Assembly: GCA_003116975.1 (NCBI GenBank)
Contig: BGKB01000089.1
Coordinates: 62,001 to 126,000 of the forward strand
DNA from: Aurantiochytrium sp. KH105
Lineage: Eukaryota > Sar > Bigyra > Thraustochytrida > Thraustochytriidae
Length of the DNA stretch: 64,000 bases
Reading direction: 5' to 3'
Part shown: positions 47,130-64,000 of the stretch, piece after piece
Position numbering within the stretch: position 1 is the stretch's first letter
Layout of the letters: each line of letters opens with the position of its first letter
Made by a program: the position numbers and the translations under genes
The notes under the pieces: generated by a model
Seen by the model: only the letters and a program-made list of their open reading frames with translations
Databases searched by the model: none
What the model was told of the DNA's origin: nothing

Positions 47130-47252
47130 TGCACCGCCTTGCACTGCCCTGCCCTGCATTGCATTGCATTGCATCGCACTGCAGTGCATTGCATTGCAGT
47201 GCATTGTATTGCAGTGCATTGTATTGCAGTGCAGCGCAGCGCAGTGCACCAC
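47130..47252. repeat. Degenerate pentanucleotide array (GCATT/GCAGT)n
   Basis: About 24 units of 5 bp including GCATT, GCAGT, GTATT and GCAGC variants, with a partly higher-order pattern TGCAGTGCATTGTATT repeated twice. Confidence 0.8.
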
Positions 47253-55710: not shown

Positions 55711-56182
55711 TCTTCTTTTGCACGCTTCAATGGAGGGAAATGTTTTCAGAAGACGCCGCCAATCAGTTTAGAATTGGCAATTTTGTAAGACATGATTTCG
55801 AAACTTTTTATCTTTGCGTTCCACACGAACGACACGTTCTACTACTGTTGCTCATGTTCTCCCTAAGCTTGAACGTTTCGTTTTCCCAAAAAATGAAGCA
55901 CCTCTGTTGACTTTCATCCAGGCAAAAGCACAAAGTTTGTGCGCAACAGGACTATGACAGGCTCAACACTAACTCAACACTAAATACGATTGCCTTCTGC
56001 TCACACAACCTCATGCCAGCCATCCTCTGTTTATCTCATTAAGCTCGGCTGAGGCTGCCAACGCAGAGTGGTGTCAATGAAGAAGAAGAAGAAGAAGAAG
56101 AAGAAGGGTGATGATGCAAGTGACGATGATGACGCTTTGTTGGCTTGATTGGCTTGCTTGCTTCGAACAAAGACGAAATAAA
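55711..56182. other. Intergenic region between HINT and malonyl transacylase genes
   Basis: AT-rich 3' flank, then a (GAA)n run at 56080-56107 about 75 bp upstream of the next ATG. No supported gene. Confidence 0.5.
56080..56107. repeat. (GAA)n triplet microsatellite
   Basis: About nine GAA units 75 bp before the malonyl transacylase ATG. Confidence 0.9.
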
Positions 56183-57103
56183 ATGGCAGTCCCTTCCGAC
56201 TCGAGCGAGGCGACGACGGCGCGAGTGATCTTCGTGCTCGTGCCGGGCCAAGGCACGCGCAGCGAAGGCGTCGCGCCGCTGCAGAGCGCGCGTGTTGCCT
56301 CGTGTGCCCAGGATGAGCTTGGGTTAGACGTGACACGGCTCACGGCAGAGCAGCTCAGCGGCAACACCTACTACGCGCAGCTGGCAGTAGGCGTGCGCGC
56401 GTTGGACCGCATCGATAGGCTGCGCAAGGAACGCAGCGACCTCTTTGCACAGCCAGGTACGCAGACGTGCTTTGCCGGCTTTTCTGTAGGCGAGATCCCG
56501 GCCCTTGTCGGCGCTGGGAAACTCAGCCTCCGTGATGGCTTGCGTGTCCTCCGCGCGCGAGCTGCAGCAATGCAATCCGCGTGTGAGGCTGTCCCGGGAA
56601 CAATGGTCACCTTGCAAGGCGTGCAAGACGAGACGGCGCTGTTGGCGCACGGCAGTATCGCATCCAAATTGTACCCCGGATGTTGTGTCGTGGCGGGCCC
56701 AAGTGCCAAATTGACAAAAGTGAACTGGGTCCCAGAGCTAGCTGAGCGAGCCAGAGTCCGTACAGACCTTGCAGGTGCCTTTCACACCGAACAAATGACT
56801 CCTGGCGCCGATGCTATCCGCAATTTACGCGGTAAAGTCATGCCGGCTCGCGGACGCCCCGATAGCGTCATCTTCGCCAATGTATCTGGCAAACTCTACA
56901 CTGACACTGATGATGTGCTCGAGTGCCTTGCGGACCAGGTCGTATCCACGGTGCAATGGGAGAGCATTTTGCAGTCAATTGTCGCTGATTCGCGCCCAAA
57001 GGTCATCGTTGATCTTGCGTCAAAGGGACAATTTCGTGCAATGCTTCGTTCGATTGACCCCTCCCTCGTCGAAGATGAGTCTCTTTTTGTCGAGTTCCAA
57101 TAG
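56183..57103 (+). CDS. Malonyl-CoA:ACP transacylase (discrete acyltransferase)
   Basis: A 306-aa FabD/MCAT-family enzyme that loads malonyl units from CoA onto an acyl carrier protein. The catalytic pieces are present: PGQGTRS (oxyanion Gln), nucleophile S101 in AGFSVGE (usually GHSxGE; His replaced by Phe), RARAAAMQSA (carboxylate-binding Arg), GAFHTEQM with H201 as base, and FANVSG. Length and spacing match bacterial FabD. The start is the ATG in the context AAAATGGC at 56183; upstream in-frame ATGs (56111 and 56114) would add 24 unlike residues. The N-terminus (MAVPSDSSEATTARV) is not a clear mitochondrial presequence, unlike usual eukaryotic MCAT. It lies about 2.2 kb from the 3' end of the KS-ACP gene, which shows no acyltransferase domain. 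Confidence 0.88.
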   Translation: MAVPSDSSEATTARVIFVLVPGQGTRSEGVAPLQSARVASCAQDELGLDVTRLTAEQLSGNTYYAQLAVGVRALDRIDRLRKERSDLFAQPGTQTCFAGFSVGEIPALVGAGKLSLRDGLRVLRARAAAMQSACEAVPGTMVTLQGVQDETALLAHGSIASKLYPGCCVVAGPSAKLTKVNWVPELAERARVRTDLAGAFHTEQMTPGADAIRNLRGKVMPARGRPDSVIFANVSGKLYTDTDDVLECLADQVVSTVQWESILQSIVADSRPKVIVDLASKGQFRAMLRSIDPSLVEDESLFVEFQ

Positions 57104-59287: not shown

Positions 59288-62200
59288 TCAGGCCTTCCAG
59301 TCAGGGTAGGGCAGCGCGCAAGACTCGTCGATGATGCCCTGCGAGAGAATGTCGTGCAGCTCCTGCCACTCGCGACGGTTGGCTGCAATATACTCTTCGA
59401 CCGACTGAGAATCGACAAAGTCGTCCCGACGGCTGCGAAGGAGCGCATTAGCCTTCTCTCGGATACCAGGGACCTTGTCCACGAGAAATTCGGCGCCACG
59501 AATGTAGTCCGTCCACTTGCGATCCTGCACATCAACATTGTTGGCAAGCTCGGCGCTGTCAAGAATGGCTGCGTCGTTGCCCTTGAAAAAGTGCAGGTAA
59601 ACCATGACGTAGAACTTGGACATTTCGACAACGCTGGAGCCAAAGAAGGAGTTGAAGGCGTCGTCGTCAATAAAGGCGTCCGCCAGGTACATGACGTTGG
59701 TGTCAAGGTAGTTGATGGCGTTCATGTGCGTGTAGGGTGTAAGGTCGGGCACAAGACTGGCGTTACGCTCAAAGCCAGTGCAGCGAACCACAATGTCCGC
59801 CTCGATCACGTCGTCCGCGCTGCCGCCACGCACGACGACACCGTTCTCGACAAAGTGGTCGATCTCGCCAACGCAGGTCTCGAGCTTACCGAGAAAGTGG
59901 CCCACGAACCAGACGTCCGAGACGCTAATAGTGTGGCCCGTGTGCTTGATGAGGTCAAGCCAGCACTCGGGCATGGTCGAGTTGCTCGATGCGTAAAGCT
60001 GACGCCAAAGAAACATGTTCTTGCTGTTGTGGGTGGCGTTCATCTCGTCGCCAATGTCATCGACGCTTGCGCGGTGCACAAAGTTAATGTAGTCAATGTA
60101 CTTGGGGCAAATGGTGCCATGGCGACGCGCCAGGACGACTACGTTCTTGGCACCGTGTTCAAGCGCAGTACGCGCGTTCTCGACGGCGAAGGCGCCCATG
60201 CCAACAACGACGACCCGCTTGCCAGCCCAGTCAATGTTTTTGTTCTCGGCGTCGCCTCCAAAACCATCGACAATCTGGCCGGAGAACACCTCGTGCTGCT
60301 TCCAGACAATGGGACGAGGGGTACCGACGCGATCGTTAATGGCGAGAATGACTCCCGTCGCGGTGATCCTGGCCCCGCTCTTTTCGAGGCTCACAGTGTA
60401 CGAGGAACCCGAGGCGCCGGAGCGCTCGACGTTTGCAACGCGGGTACTCGTGAAGAGGCGGCCCTGGGCGTTGAGCTCGCGTGCCAGCTTGAGAATATCG
60501 GCGCGAACCTCGGCCGTGGTACTGTGGTCGCGGTTCGGGCGCGAGCGGTAGTCGTGGACGACGCGGTACGAGCCCTCGGAGCTGTTGACCTGGCTCTTGG
60601 CGTTGGCAAAGGTGGTCCAGATGCCGCCGCAAAACTCCTCCTTCTCAAGGACGACAACGTCAACGCCCTCATCCATGAGGCGCTTGGCGGCGAGCAGACC
60701 GACCACACCGGCGCCGACGACGACCACCTCATAAGAGTCCCGGGGAGCGCCAGACGTTGAGACAACCATGTCTTCCTTGGTGAGCAGGCCGACGGCCTCA
60801 TCGTCCTCTACAGGGTAGGCCGGGGAGTTGCGACGCTTGCCGTCGGCGAGGTATGCCTTGACTCGCTTGACAAAGTCCTCGGACTGGGCGGAACCGTCCG
60901 TGGCAAAGCGCACGGGGACGTCAACAAAGAGACGGACATGGGCCGCAAAGCGGGCGGCATCCTGTTCCGGATCAAGATGTCCGGTGAGCACGATCCGCGT
61001 CTCTTCGCTGCCACCGTCGGCAGGATCCGGCTGCACGGCATCGAGCACCTTGGCAGACGCCTCCTGGGCAAAGTAGAAACGGCGGCGGGCAGGGCGAAGG
61101 ACAAAGCCCGGGACGACCTTGGGGAAGAAGGCGCGAGAGGCCATGCGGGCACCGGCAACGAGGGCGCGCATCTTGAGCATGGCGACCTGGCCCGGGATGC
61201 CCTGGGTCTCCGCCGTGGTGGAGAACCCACAGTCGGTACCGGCGATGACCCGCTCGGGGCCCACAACGCGGGCATAGCGGCAGATGCGCTCGCAGACCAC
61301 CGAGGGGTCCTCGACGCTCGAGGAGCAGGTGTCGATGACGCCCGGGTACAGATCAACGTCCTTGGGAATGTCCACGTCCAGAAGCGCGCCGGCGTCGGCG
61401 TTGTGGCGGTGGTTGGCGGTCTCAAATCCAAAGCCACCAGCGTTGATACCAAAAGCAATGGGCATGACCTCGCGCGCGCTCACGTCGCGGTGATGCGTGC
61501 CCGGGTAGTTGCCCCAGCAGACGTGGACGCGTACAGCCTCGCGAGGAATGCCTTCGAGCGCACGGTTGAGCATCTTGACGTGCATGCGGGCGATGCGCTT
61601 CCAGGCCATGAGACCAAGGTGCTTGAAGCGCGTGTGACGCGACATGGCAAGATCGGGGCAGTCGACCTGGAGCGTGAAACCATGACGAACGATCGTGGCG
61701 TACTCGACGTGCATCGCGTCGGCCACCGCGCCGAGGTACTCCTCGTAGGTGGGGTAGACCTCAGGGGCATCATTGTTGAAGAACATGGCGAGCGTGCCGG
61801 GGGAGGGCGCAGAGTAAAAGGCCTGACCGGGAAGTCCAGCGTTGCAGAGGCGCATGGCGCGCTGCACGGTCTGGAGCTCGCGCTCGAGGGCCTTTTGGCC
61901 CGTGTAGGTGACCTCGCCGATGCAGTGCGGGTTGCACGTGCGCACGCTCTTGTTGAGCGTGATGAGACCCGCGCGAACGAGGAAGCGGCGCGCGAGGCAG
62001 GGCAAATCCTCGAGGTCGAGCGGCTGCGGCGCGACGGATTCGTCCTGCTCTTCGAAGCCGGACATGCGCGTGAGCGCCGAGGTGACGTAGTCCATGCGGC
62101 CGGCCTCGCCGTCATTGATGATGCTAATACCGATGCTGAGCTGGGTCTGGATGATCTTGTGGAGCTCCTTGTACTGCTGCTCGGGCTCACGGGGACGCGG

Positions 62201-64000
62201 AAGCGAGCCGACGTGAGTAGTCCGGATGAGACCATCGAAACGCGGGACAGCCCAGGTAAAAGCATCCGGCACGGAATCCTCGCGCTCGGATTCGGGTGCG
62301 CGGGCCGACTGACGTTTGGCCTGCGGCGCGACGGCGGGAACAGGGGTCGGCGCAGCAGTGGCCTGCGCGCGCGAGATCTCACCGGGGGCGATCTTGGCAG
62401 ACTGCATGATCTTCTCACGAAGGTCGGCCCAGGTATAGCCACCGCCGAGAAAGTCGCTGAGCGAGGAAGCCTCGACGGCCATCTTTTGCTCGATGCGCAA
62501 GAAAAGTTCGGTGAGGCCAAGCGAGTCGACGCCGCTCTGAAGGATCTGCGCCTCGGGGGAGACCTGGCCAGCGACGGAGCTCACAACGTCCCAGAAAATC
62601 TGCTCCATGACGGTCTGCTGCATGCTCGCGTCCTCGTGGGCGGCGGAGGAAACCTGCTGCGCGGGTTCGTGCTGCAATTGCATTTGCTGCAGTTTCTGCA
62701 TTTGCTGCTGCAGCTGCTGCTGCTCGAGAATCTGGGCGCGTTGCTGCGTACGGTCAAAGACAAAGACTCTGCTGTTGCTGTTGCGCTCCTTGGCGGGGAC
62801 GGCAACGGGCGGAAGCGGCTTGGGCAAGAGCTGCTGCGGCGCGGCACGAAGCAAGATGTGGACGTTGCTGCCGCCAAAGCCAAAGGAGGAGACGCCAGCG
62901 ACACGGAGCGGCTGGTCAGGGCGGACGTTGGCGTCGGCGGCGAGGCGAAGACCCTCGCAGGGTTCCAGAAGCGGGTTGGCCTCGACAAAGTTGGCCATGC
63001 GCGGAACTTCCTGGCGCGAGAGCACCATGGCTGCGTGCAGCAAACCTGCGACGCCGGCGGCGGCCTCGAGATGGCCGAGGCTGCTCTTGACGCTCGCCAG
63101 GTAGCAGGGACGGTCCGCCGACCGGGACGTGCCCACGGCAGCCTTGAGAGCGCTCCATTCGATCGGATCGCCGAGCTTCGTGCCGGTACCGTGGCACTCG
63201 ACAAAGTCCACCTCGCCAGCATCCACGCGCGCCGCGCGCAAAGCCGCCGCAATGCACTCCTCCTGAGCGGCTGGGCTGGGCGCGGTCAGGCTCGCGCCGC
63301 GGCCACCATTCTGGTTGGAGGCGCCGCCGAGCACCTCGGCGTAATACGGCTCGCAGTCGTCATTGTTGACCTTGCCGGCGTCAGAGCCGTTGAGAGCATC
63401 CGAGTTCTTGGGCTCGCGGCGCTGGAGCAGCACGAGCGCGGCGCCTTCACTGCGCACGTAGCCGTCGGCGCTAGAGTCAAAGGAGCGGCAGCGCGCACCG
63501 GGGGCGAGGAAGCCGGACTGCGCCATGCAGGTGGAGAAGGCGGGGTCCCAGAGCAGGTTGACGCCACCGGCAATGGCGGCATCGATGGTGCCGGCGGCGA
63601 GGTCGCGCTGGGCCTCGAGCACAGCGTCGAGCGAGGAGGCGCAGGCGGAGTTGATGACCTTGCAAGGACCGTGGAGGCGGTAGACGTGGCTGACGCGCGC
63701 GGCGATGATGCTCGGGTTGGTGCCCGTCGGGTAAAAGACCGAGGAGCGGTCGCCGGCAAACTCCGAGTTCCAGGCGCCAATGTAGACGCCGGTGCGCGCG
63801 GGAAGCTGCTCGATACCATGCTCAGTGAGAAGCTTGTCCACGCACGAGAGCACGAGTGCCTGTTGCGGGTCCAGAGTCTGGGCCTCGCCTTGCGAGATTC
63901 CGAACTTGGCGCAGTCCAGCGTCAGATCCCCGAGAAAGGCAGCTGCGCGCTTGCCGCCGTCAAAGCCCGCGTCGAAGCGCACAGCGTCGCCCTGCGACGA
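59288..64000 (-). CDS. Ketosynthase - ACP - core-MetE-like - flavin monooxygenase fusion, N-terminus outside window
   Basis: One frame runs from the right edge to a stop at 59288 (1570 aa visible, no intron). In order: (1) beta-ketoacyl synthase, about 1-390, with C120 (NSACASSLDA), H270 (VECHGTGTKLGDPIE), H310 (KSSLGHLEAAAG) and the end motif SSFGFGGSNVH; (2) a Gln-rich linker, 415-450; (3) acyl carrier protein, about 460-535, with phosphopantetheine serine S493 (GVDSLGL); (4) a domain like the C-terminal half of cobalamin-independent methionine synthase, about 590-965, opening RTTHVGSLPRP and keeping the four likely zinc ligands H826, C828, E860 and C924; (5) flavin-dependent monooxygenase, about 1088-1520, with an FAD site (VVVVGAGVVGLLAA) and an NADPH site (VVVVGMGAFAVENA). 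No acyltransferase, ketoreductase or thioesterase is visible in this part. The opposite strand's open frames are shadows. Confidence 0.9.
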   Translation of the reverse strand, partial: SSQGDAVRFDAGFDGGKRAAAFLGDLTLDCAKFGISQGEAQTLDPQQALVLSCVDKLLTEHGIEQLPARTGVYIGAWNSEFAGDRSSVFYPTGTNPSIIAARVSHVYRLHGPCKVINSACASSLDAVLEAQRDLAAGTIDAAIAGGVNLLWDPAFSTCMAQSGFLAPGARCRSFDSSADGYVRSEGAALVLLQRREPKNSDALNGSDAGKVNNDDCEPYYAEVLGGASNQNGGRGASLTAPSPAAQEECIAAALRAARVDAGEVDFVECHGTGTKLGDPIEWSALKAAVGTSRSADRPCYLASVKSSLGHLEAAAGVAGLLHAAMVLSRQEVPRMANFVEANPLLEPCEGLRLAADANVRPDQPLRVAGVSSFGFGGSNVHILLRAAPQQLLPKPLPPVAVPAKERNSNSRVFVFDRTQQRAQILEQQQLQQQMQKLQQMQLQHEPAQQVSSAAHEDASMQQTVMEQIFWDVVSSVAGQVSPEAQILQSGVDSLGLTELFLRIEQKMAVEASSLSDFLGGGYTWADLREKIMQSAKIAPGEISRAQATAAPTPVPAVAPQAKRQSARAPESEREDSVPDAFTWAVPRFDGLIRTTHVGSLPRPREPEQQYKELHKIIQTQLSIGISIINDGEAGRMDYVTSALTRMSGFEEQDESVAPQPLDLEDLPCLARRFLVRAGLITLNKSVRTCNPHCIGEVTYTGQKALERELQTVQRAMRLCNAGLPGQAFYSAPSPGTLAMFFNNDAPEVYPTYEEYLGAVADAMHVEYATIVRHGFTLQVDCPDLAMSRHTRFKHLGLMAWKRIARMHVKMLNRALEGIPREAVRVHVCWGNYPGTHHRDVSAREVMPIAFGINAGGFGFETANHRHNADAGALLDVDIPKDVDLYPGVIDTCSSSVEDPSVVCERICRYARVVGPERVIAGTDCGFSTTAETQGIPGQVAMLKMRALVAGARMASRAFFPKVVPGFVLRPARRRFYFAQEASAKVLDAVQPDPADGGSEETRIVLTGHLDPEQDAARFAAHVRLFVDVPVRFATDGSAQSEDFVKRVKAYLADGKRRNSPAYPVEDDEAVGLLTKEDMVVSTSGAPRDSYEVVVVGAGVVGLLAAKRLMDEGVDVVVLEKEEFCGGIWTTFANAKSQVNSSEGSYRVVHDYRSRPNRDHSTTAEVRADILKLARELNAQGRLFTSTRVANVERSGASGSSYTVSLEKSGARITATGVILAINDRVGTPRPIVWKQHEVFSGQIVDGFGGDAENKNIDWAGKRVVVVGMGAFAVENARTALEHGAKNVVVLARRHGTICPKYIDYINFVHRASVDDIGDEMNATHNSKNMFLWRQLYASSNSTMPECWLDLIKHTGHTISVSDVWFVGHFLGKLETCVGEIDHFVENGVVVRGGSADDVIEADIVVRCTGFERNASLVPDLTPYTHMNAINYLDTNVMYLADAFIDDDAFNSFFGSSVVEMSKFYVMVYLHFFKGNDAAILDSAELANNVDVQDRKWTDYIRGAEFLVDKVPGIREKANALLRSRRDDFVDSQSVEEYIAANRREWQELHDILSQGIIDESCALPYPDWKA

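Follow-up and report, generated by a model that had tools for sequence, protein, structure and literature searches.

The window analysed here is a stretch of 64,000 nucleotides of Aurantiochytrium sp. KH105 (C89:62001-126000 in a 76-Mb assembly). Its last open frame raises the question whether a ketosynthase (KS), an acyl carrier protein (ACP), a core-MetE-like zinc domain and a flavin monooxygenase (FMO)-like domain are really joined there in one protein, as a sequence-only reading had claimed, and what chemistry such a protein could perform. The frame at 59288-64000 on the minus strand is open and carries all four domains. It covers the last four fifths of a gene for 1999 aa, the remainder lying beyond the window, on the continuation of contig C89. 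The complete synthase gene (C89:121288-127287, minus strand; protein P0001) is an intronless frame of about 6 kb read from an ATG. The additional N-terminal domains that the reading had considered possible past position 64000 turned out to be an acyltransferase (AT) and a further ACP, giving the full order AT-ACP-KS-ACP-MetE-like-(stretch of ~115 aa)-FMO. The features are as follows, in window coordinates unless the contig is named:

C89:126163-127287, minus strand, beyond window position 64000: AT (residues 1-300) and first ACP (ACP1, residues 310-375)
62810..64000, minus strand: KS domain, residues 430-826 in the window, its start at about residue 400 outside it
63632-63652, minus strand: contains the codon of the catalytic KS Cys549
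63179-63199, minus strand: contains the codon of the catalytic KS His699
63059-63079, minus strand: contains the codon of the catalytic KS His739
62408..62650, minus strand: second ACP (ACP2), residues ~880-960; PF00550, E 6.6e-5
62513-62533, minus strand: ACP2 motif GVDSLGL with Ser922
61103..62236, minus strand: core-MetE-like zinc domain, residues ~1018-1395
62192-62215, minus strand: MetE-like motif HVGSLPRP
62096-62116, minus strand: MetE-like motif NDGE
61646-61666, minus strand: MetE-like motif VDCPDLA
61508-61528, minus strand: MetE-like motif HxC
61412-61432, minus strand: MetE-like Glu
61223-61240, minus strand: MetE-like motif DCG
60752..61099, minus strand: linking stretch of ~115 aa, residues ~1397-1512, without a Pfam name
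59288..60745, minus strand: FMO-like flavoprotein domain, residues 1515-1999 and the stop codon
60695-60718, minus strand: FAD site
60578-60598, minus strand: contains the FMO-type Asn
60185-60211, minus strand: NADP site
56108..57103, plus strand: stand-alone malonyl-type acyltransferase (MAT); PF00698, E 1.6e-9, malonyl Arg kept

A second haplotype on contig C98, 95% identical over 9.7 kb, holds a frame of the identical size of 1999 aa. The two copies differ at 83 synonymous versus 16 non-synonymous codons, which indicates that the gene is under purifying selection, and third-position GC stays at 0.74-0.84 throughout. In each domain of P0001 the expected key residues are present, except for the malonyl Arg of the AT and the His of the FxGxxxH fingerprint of the FMO.

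The fusion was also found in other protists, namely dinoflagellates, Amoebophrya, a pelagophyte and a pedinellid, and the architecture is thus not unique to this genome. In homologue searches, which scored a subset of candidates and gave results as the best 120 rows, at least 31 relatives (P0003-P0033) ranked above ordinary polyketide synthases (PKSs) among the matches listed for the whole protein. Named relatives come from Amoebophrya sp. A25, Effrenium voratum, Cladocopium goreaui, Symbiodinium sp. CCMP2592 (called PKS40) and Chrysophaeum taylorii (the pelagophyte), with a symbB-model protein besides; P0015 carries the fusion on one protein in the MMETSP transcriptome of Pedinellales sp. CCMP2098 (taxid 483369). 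The remaining ones are mostly metagenomic and some are partial. When P0001 and the 31 relatives were aligned, the AT motif region was represented in 24 of the 32 rows and gapped in 8, and a MetE-like segment of more than 300 aa was present in 31. Therefore, with the frame open in both haplotypes and the fusion recurring in relatives, a real single-polypeptide KS/ACP/MetE-like/FMO synthase of conserved architecture is confirmed. Among the metagenomic relatives, P0007 (2225 aa) has two tandem MetE-FMO units on one protein, the first of them preceded by an ACP.

The first half of the protein is a type I PKS, in that a KS with Cys-His-His and an ACP with a modifiable serine lie on one chain. The KS matches PF00109 (E 2.4e-42) and PF02801 (E 6.4e-37), and its triad, seen already in the sequence-only reading, is kept in the aligned rows (Cys in 33/33, His in 32/33, His in 33/33), the one row lacking a His being P0023, from whose gene model that stretch is missing. 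A glutamine-rich linker leads from the KS to ACP2, where the serine of the DSL motif noted earlier is found in 23/23 protist rows and in 9 of 10 bacterial PKS frames, the tenth (L032) stopping before ACP2. ACP1 has the motif GLASADI, with its Ser in 33/33 aligned rows; the ACP1 stretch of P0001 gave no Pfam match. The N-terminal AT is recognized by PF00698 (E 2.1e-10). The malonyl-type Arg, expected 25 residues after the active Ser, occurs in none of 33 rows, the position being Ile, Leu, Met or Val in 32 and Asn in one, while it was found in all 44 GHSxGE motifs of other PKS matches, for which the names seen were all bacterial, and also in the MAT of the window. As a synthase AT without the malonyl-binding Arg looks like a loader of starters, its residues point to a starter-type AT, and the membership in the PKSs stands. 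The stand-alone MAT, separated from the synthase by one other open reading frame (ORF), is a possible supplier of malonyl to ACP2 in trans; alternatively, it may be a mitochondrial FabD, perhaps unrelated to the synthase.

Single-domain searches revealed free-standing bacterial-type proteins for both C-terminal parts, MetE-like ones of ~380 aa (up to 46% identity among the matches listed) and FMO-like ones of ~612 aa (~48% among those listed), and 12 source contigs were apparently common to the best 120 MetE-like and the 119 FMO-like matches. A scan of a genome collection with one genome per species (84,980 species) found 12 bacterial loci with Desulfobacterota-type MAG titles: Desulfobacteraceae, Desulfosarcina, Desulfofustis, Desulfobulbaceae and Desulfobacterales, together with an Olavius-associated Delta 1 proteobacterium and unclassified Delta- or Proteobacteria MAGs. 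The FMO gene is present in 12/12 by selection, a MetE-like gene beside it in 11/12 and a PKS gene in 10/12; L037 and L040, where one partner gene or both are missing, begin at a contig end adjoining the FMO. The bacterial PKS (805-995 aa) aligns within residues 3-946 of P0001 with 30-35% identity, and by alignment nine of the ten ORFs contain AT, ACP1, KS and ACP2; one of these ten, from L038, was also searched with Pfam. Wherever a PKS gene is present (ten loci), the MetE-like gene sits between the FMO and PKS genes. Its orientation agrees with that of the FMO gene in 6 of 11 loci and is reversed in the other 5:

L036 8606-9742, inverted MetE-like gene
L042 8599-9732, inverted MetE-like gene
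L043 8710-9843, inverted MetE-like gene
L032 6963-8267, inverted MetE-like gene
L037 1-342, inverted MetE-like gene

Position kept despite inversion argues for selection on the neighbourhood and not on one transcript. Among 27 ORFs scanned, a subset of those flanking the cassette in the 12 loci, no recurrent pathway partner was detected; they encode abhydrolases, LysE, PGI, GcpE, a transposase, GH10/GH62, Dus, a helicase and others, 5 of the 27 being familyless. Sequence clustering across the loci gave one cluster shared by four of them, away from the cassette (its L037 member is an ABC-transporter ATPase), an alpha/beta hydrolase directly upstream in two (L035 and L039), a Pyr_redox-type cluster in two and no further shared genes. 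Thus, the three-gene unit seems complete in itself. Its distribution is patchy. With the query genomes counted in, FMO matches were found in 1 of 395 genomes from a sample of the phylum to which G001 belongs (that one being G001, the query), in 3 of 30 from its family and in 9 of 389 from the class to which G003 belongs.

Since adjacent bacterial genes match the parts of the protist protein, the latter represents the three-gene unit on a single chain. The direction of the change is not settled, as two trees disagree. A quick tree with the ten bacterial loci as outgroup placed the 23 protist proteins on one side (SH-aLRT 100), and a tree of the MetE segment with distant MetE-like outgroups placed the bacteria inside the protist rows, beside a dinoflagellate-type clade (support 88, long branches). 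Fusion in protists, splitting after a fusion, or two fusions may each be read from these sequences. On plasmids of Ruegeria and Marinovum, MetE-like relatives of ~40% identity (L053 6013-7137 and L056 5989-7110) adjoin histidinol-dehydrogenase-like, ester-cyclase/SnoaL-type and cupin genes, the Marinovum gene lying near DmdA and SBP56 genes.

The reading that we prefer, with a probability of about 0.5, is that the synthase is the one-chain version of a self-contained three-part PKS cassette which performs one extension, then zinc/homocysteine chemistry and then a flavin oxidation. The AT would load a non-carboxylated acyl starter onto ACP1, and the KS would join it to malonyl on ACP2, provided by a separate malonyltransferase, to yield a beta-ketoacyl-ACP. 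The zinc domain would then activate homocysteine or a similar amino-thiol, which would either be joined to the chain or accept an alkyl (methyl) group from it, and the FMO would oxidise the sulfur, the nitrogen or the adjacent carbon. As no thioesterase domain was found in P0001, the product may also be set free in the zinc or the FMO step; it would probably be a small polyketide that contains sulfur or has been demethylated.

The zinc site of the core-MetE-like domain, said to be complete in the sequence-only reading, is so throughout the family, with the ligands H641, C643, E665 and C726 (E. coli MetE numbering after PMC7857596, here and for the thiol site) in 41/41 rows. The homocysteine-site residues S433, E484 and D599 are kept in 31/31 protist and 10/10 bacterial rows. 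These three residues, one of them common to EtnE, suggest homocysteine as the thiol. The PF01717 profile proposed for this domain missed even the synthase gene itself in a search of its genome, so that MetE genes elsewhere in it may have escaped this search too. The closest solved structure is 3rpd (21% identity), called MesD in PMC7857596. With MesA-D and the catalytic half of MetE the synthase domain has in common the fold, the H-C-E-C ligands and the Ser/Glu/Asp of the homocysteine site (same source), but only ~20% identity. MesA-D and MetE are methionine synthases, whereas the synthase domain is likened to them by sequence and fold alone; it is fused to, or lies beside, a PKS and an FMO and has a DCPDLAMGRH stretch absent from the MetE and EtnE proteins compared.

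These likenesses also feed the strongest rival, which we consider unlikely: a methyl-transfer unit, that is, a folate-independent methionine synthase with a flavin domain, comparable to MesD with MesX and oxygen, in which the PKS makes or carries the methyl donor (e.g. a dimethylsulfonio-acyl chain) and methionine would be among the products. It agrees with 3rpd as nearest structure, with the complete zinc and homocysteine residues, with the reported dependence of MesD on oxygen and on MesX, for which a flavin is predicted (PMC7857596), and with the plasmid relatives, the Marinovum copy near DmdA and SBP56 included. However, the identity to 3rpd is low, the flavin partner is FMO-like and not DUF1852, and MetH/BHMT-type domains of the host could provide methionine. 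A search for MesX (DUF1852, PF08908) matched in 0 of 4 genomes, the positive control likewise in 0 of 14, so that it weighs neither way.

We hold as improbable a C-S bond formation as in epoxyalkane:CoM transferase, in which a zinc-activated CoM-like thiol would open an FMO-made electrophile. The comparison was made with one EtnE reference, from pNOCA01 of Nocardioides JS614 (L057). Its annotation reads methionine synthase II family protein, and we take it to be EtnE from its neighbour genes. Superfamily and zinc ligands are alike in both, and among the 120 relatives listed one bacterial protein bears the name epoxyalkane-CoM transferase in its source, although this name is annotation only. 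The thiol site of EtnE is Asn/Lys/Asp, whereas the family here has Ser/Glu/Asp (Glu and Ser in 41/41), with 27% identity to EtnE, so that this enzyme, suggested earlier as a model, is left unsupported; the CoM-type site (Lys at E484, Asn at S433) occurs in 0/41 rows.

The preferred sequence of one extension, homocysteine chemistry and oxidation depends in its last step on the flavoprotein. The bacterial FMO proteins have ~130 aa ahead of the flavin domain (ADLPYVYVV...CYPYA) without a Pfam match, to which the linking stretch of P0001 is apparently related, a weak likeness by eye and alignment; this stretch was modelled with low confidence, and the fold comparison covered other parts of P0001. 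The two dinucleotide sites (GxGxxG/A) expected for the FMO, the GGxW motif and the Asn, presumably with its FMO-type role, are each present in 33/33 rows. FxGxxxH is the fingerprint of class B flavin monooxygenases; here its His is absent, the position being D in 15, S in 6, N in 5, R in 3, A in 2, P in 1 and Q in 1 of 33 rows. In fold, the domain is equally close to disulfide reductases and to FMOs, and both features may speak against an oxidation by the FMO. Many of the bacterial hosts come from lineages generally regarded as anaerobic and sulfate-reducing, a poor fit with an oxygen-using FMO, and the flavoprotein may thus act otherwise.

More doubtful still is a Baeyer-Villiger route, in which the FMO would insert oxygen beside the beta-keto group and release the chain, the zinc domain merely binding or transferring the product. 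The best sequence matches in the PDB are Baeyer-Villiger enzymes, and LbmA (8odw), a PKS oxygenase domain, is among the best fold matches, but the column after GGxW that corresponds to PAMO D66, presumably the catalytic Asp, is Gln in 31 and Arg in 2 of 33 rows, and the Asn to which we assign an FMO-type role is invariant. LbmA Ox-ACP of the lobatamide PKS is likewise a PKS-embedded flavin oxygenase, with 18% identity to the FMO of the synthase and, to our knowledge, no MetE-like domain. That adjacent genes were read as one frame, or that the gene is decaying, can practically be dismissed: the frame is known here from genome DNA alone and an intronless 6-kb frame is unusual for many eukaryotes, but both haplotypes are open with predominantly synonymous differences, third-position GC is even over the entire frame, and the fusion occurs in several protist phyla, once in a transcriptome.

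Beyond the one-chain cassette itself, these data tentatively suggest a new class of assembly line, with one extension, a zinc-homocysteine station that moves methyl or sulfur between chain and amino-thiol and a flavoprotein finish; its parts are encoded separately in bacteria and on one chain in several protist phyla. The new element is the core-MetE station, PKSs and PKS-borne flavin oxygenases being already known. Gonyol-type sulfonium chemistry is reportedly a related case of methionine-derived units on a dinoflagellate PKS. According to PMC7159223, the BurA-like NRPS/PKS of dinoflagellates likewise brings methionine-derived units onto a PKS, but its order is TE-A-PP-KS-AT-TE-KR-PP, with an A domain and neither core-MetE nor FMO. 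The claim that no synthase with the present domain order has been described was borne out within the main texts of the open-licence literature searched, where neither a KS-MetE-FMO synthase nor any polyketide assembly line bearing a zinc domain of methionine-synthase type was found. The architecture is absent from the available parts of PMC4647583, PMC6361889, PMC7159223, PMC12366255 and PMC7857596, and the terms sought are absent from PMC10794256. The part of PMC12366255 available deals with core-MetE and the use of DMSP methyl groups in a marine bacterium and does not touch this synthase family.

The synthase looks like a so far unexplained biosynthetic machine, and its split bacterial form makes the question directly testable, as the three genes can be expressed separately. 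If the starter were a dimethylsulfonio-acyl group, as it could be in DMSP-rich organisms, the synthase would connect the chemistry of polyketides with the methionine/DMSP cycle. As the carriers of the fused form include symbiotic dinoflagellates of corals, a parasite of dinoflagellates and marine algae, the product may be ecologically common, and it may belong to the marine organic-sulfur cycle.

Several minor observations were made in the same genome. At C43:428016-433463, three MetH/BHMT-type S-methyl_trans domains with equal scores are spaced 2,259 bp apart inside one open frame of 2,874 aa, and two more are found on C193. On C27 and C56, one for each haplotype, open frames of 5708 and 5831 aa each give four ketosynthase matches, and the genome also holds a PfaA-type PUFA-synthase KS. 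In the window, 47179-47239 on the plus strand matches Rfam mir-33 with 50.3 bits against a cut-off of 50, probably by chance in a protist.
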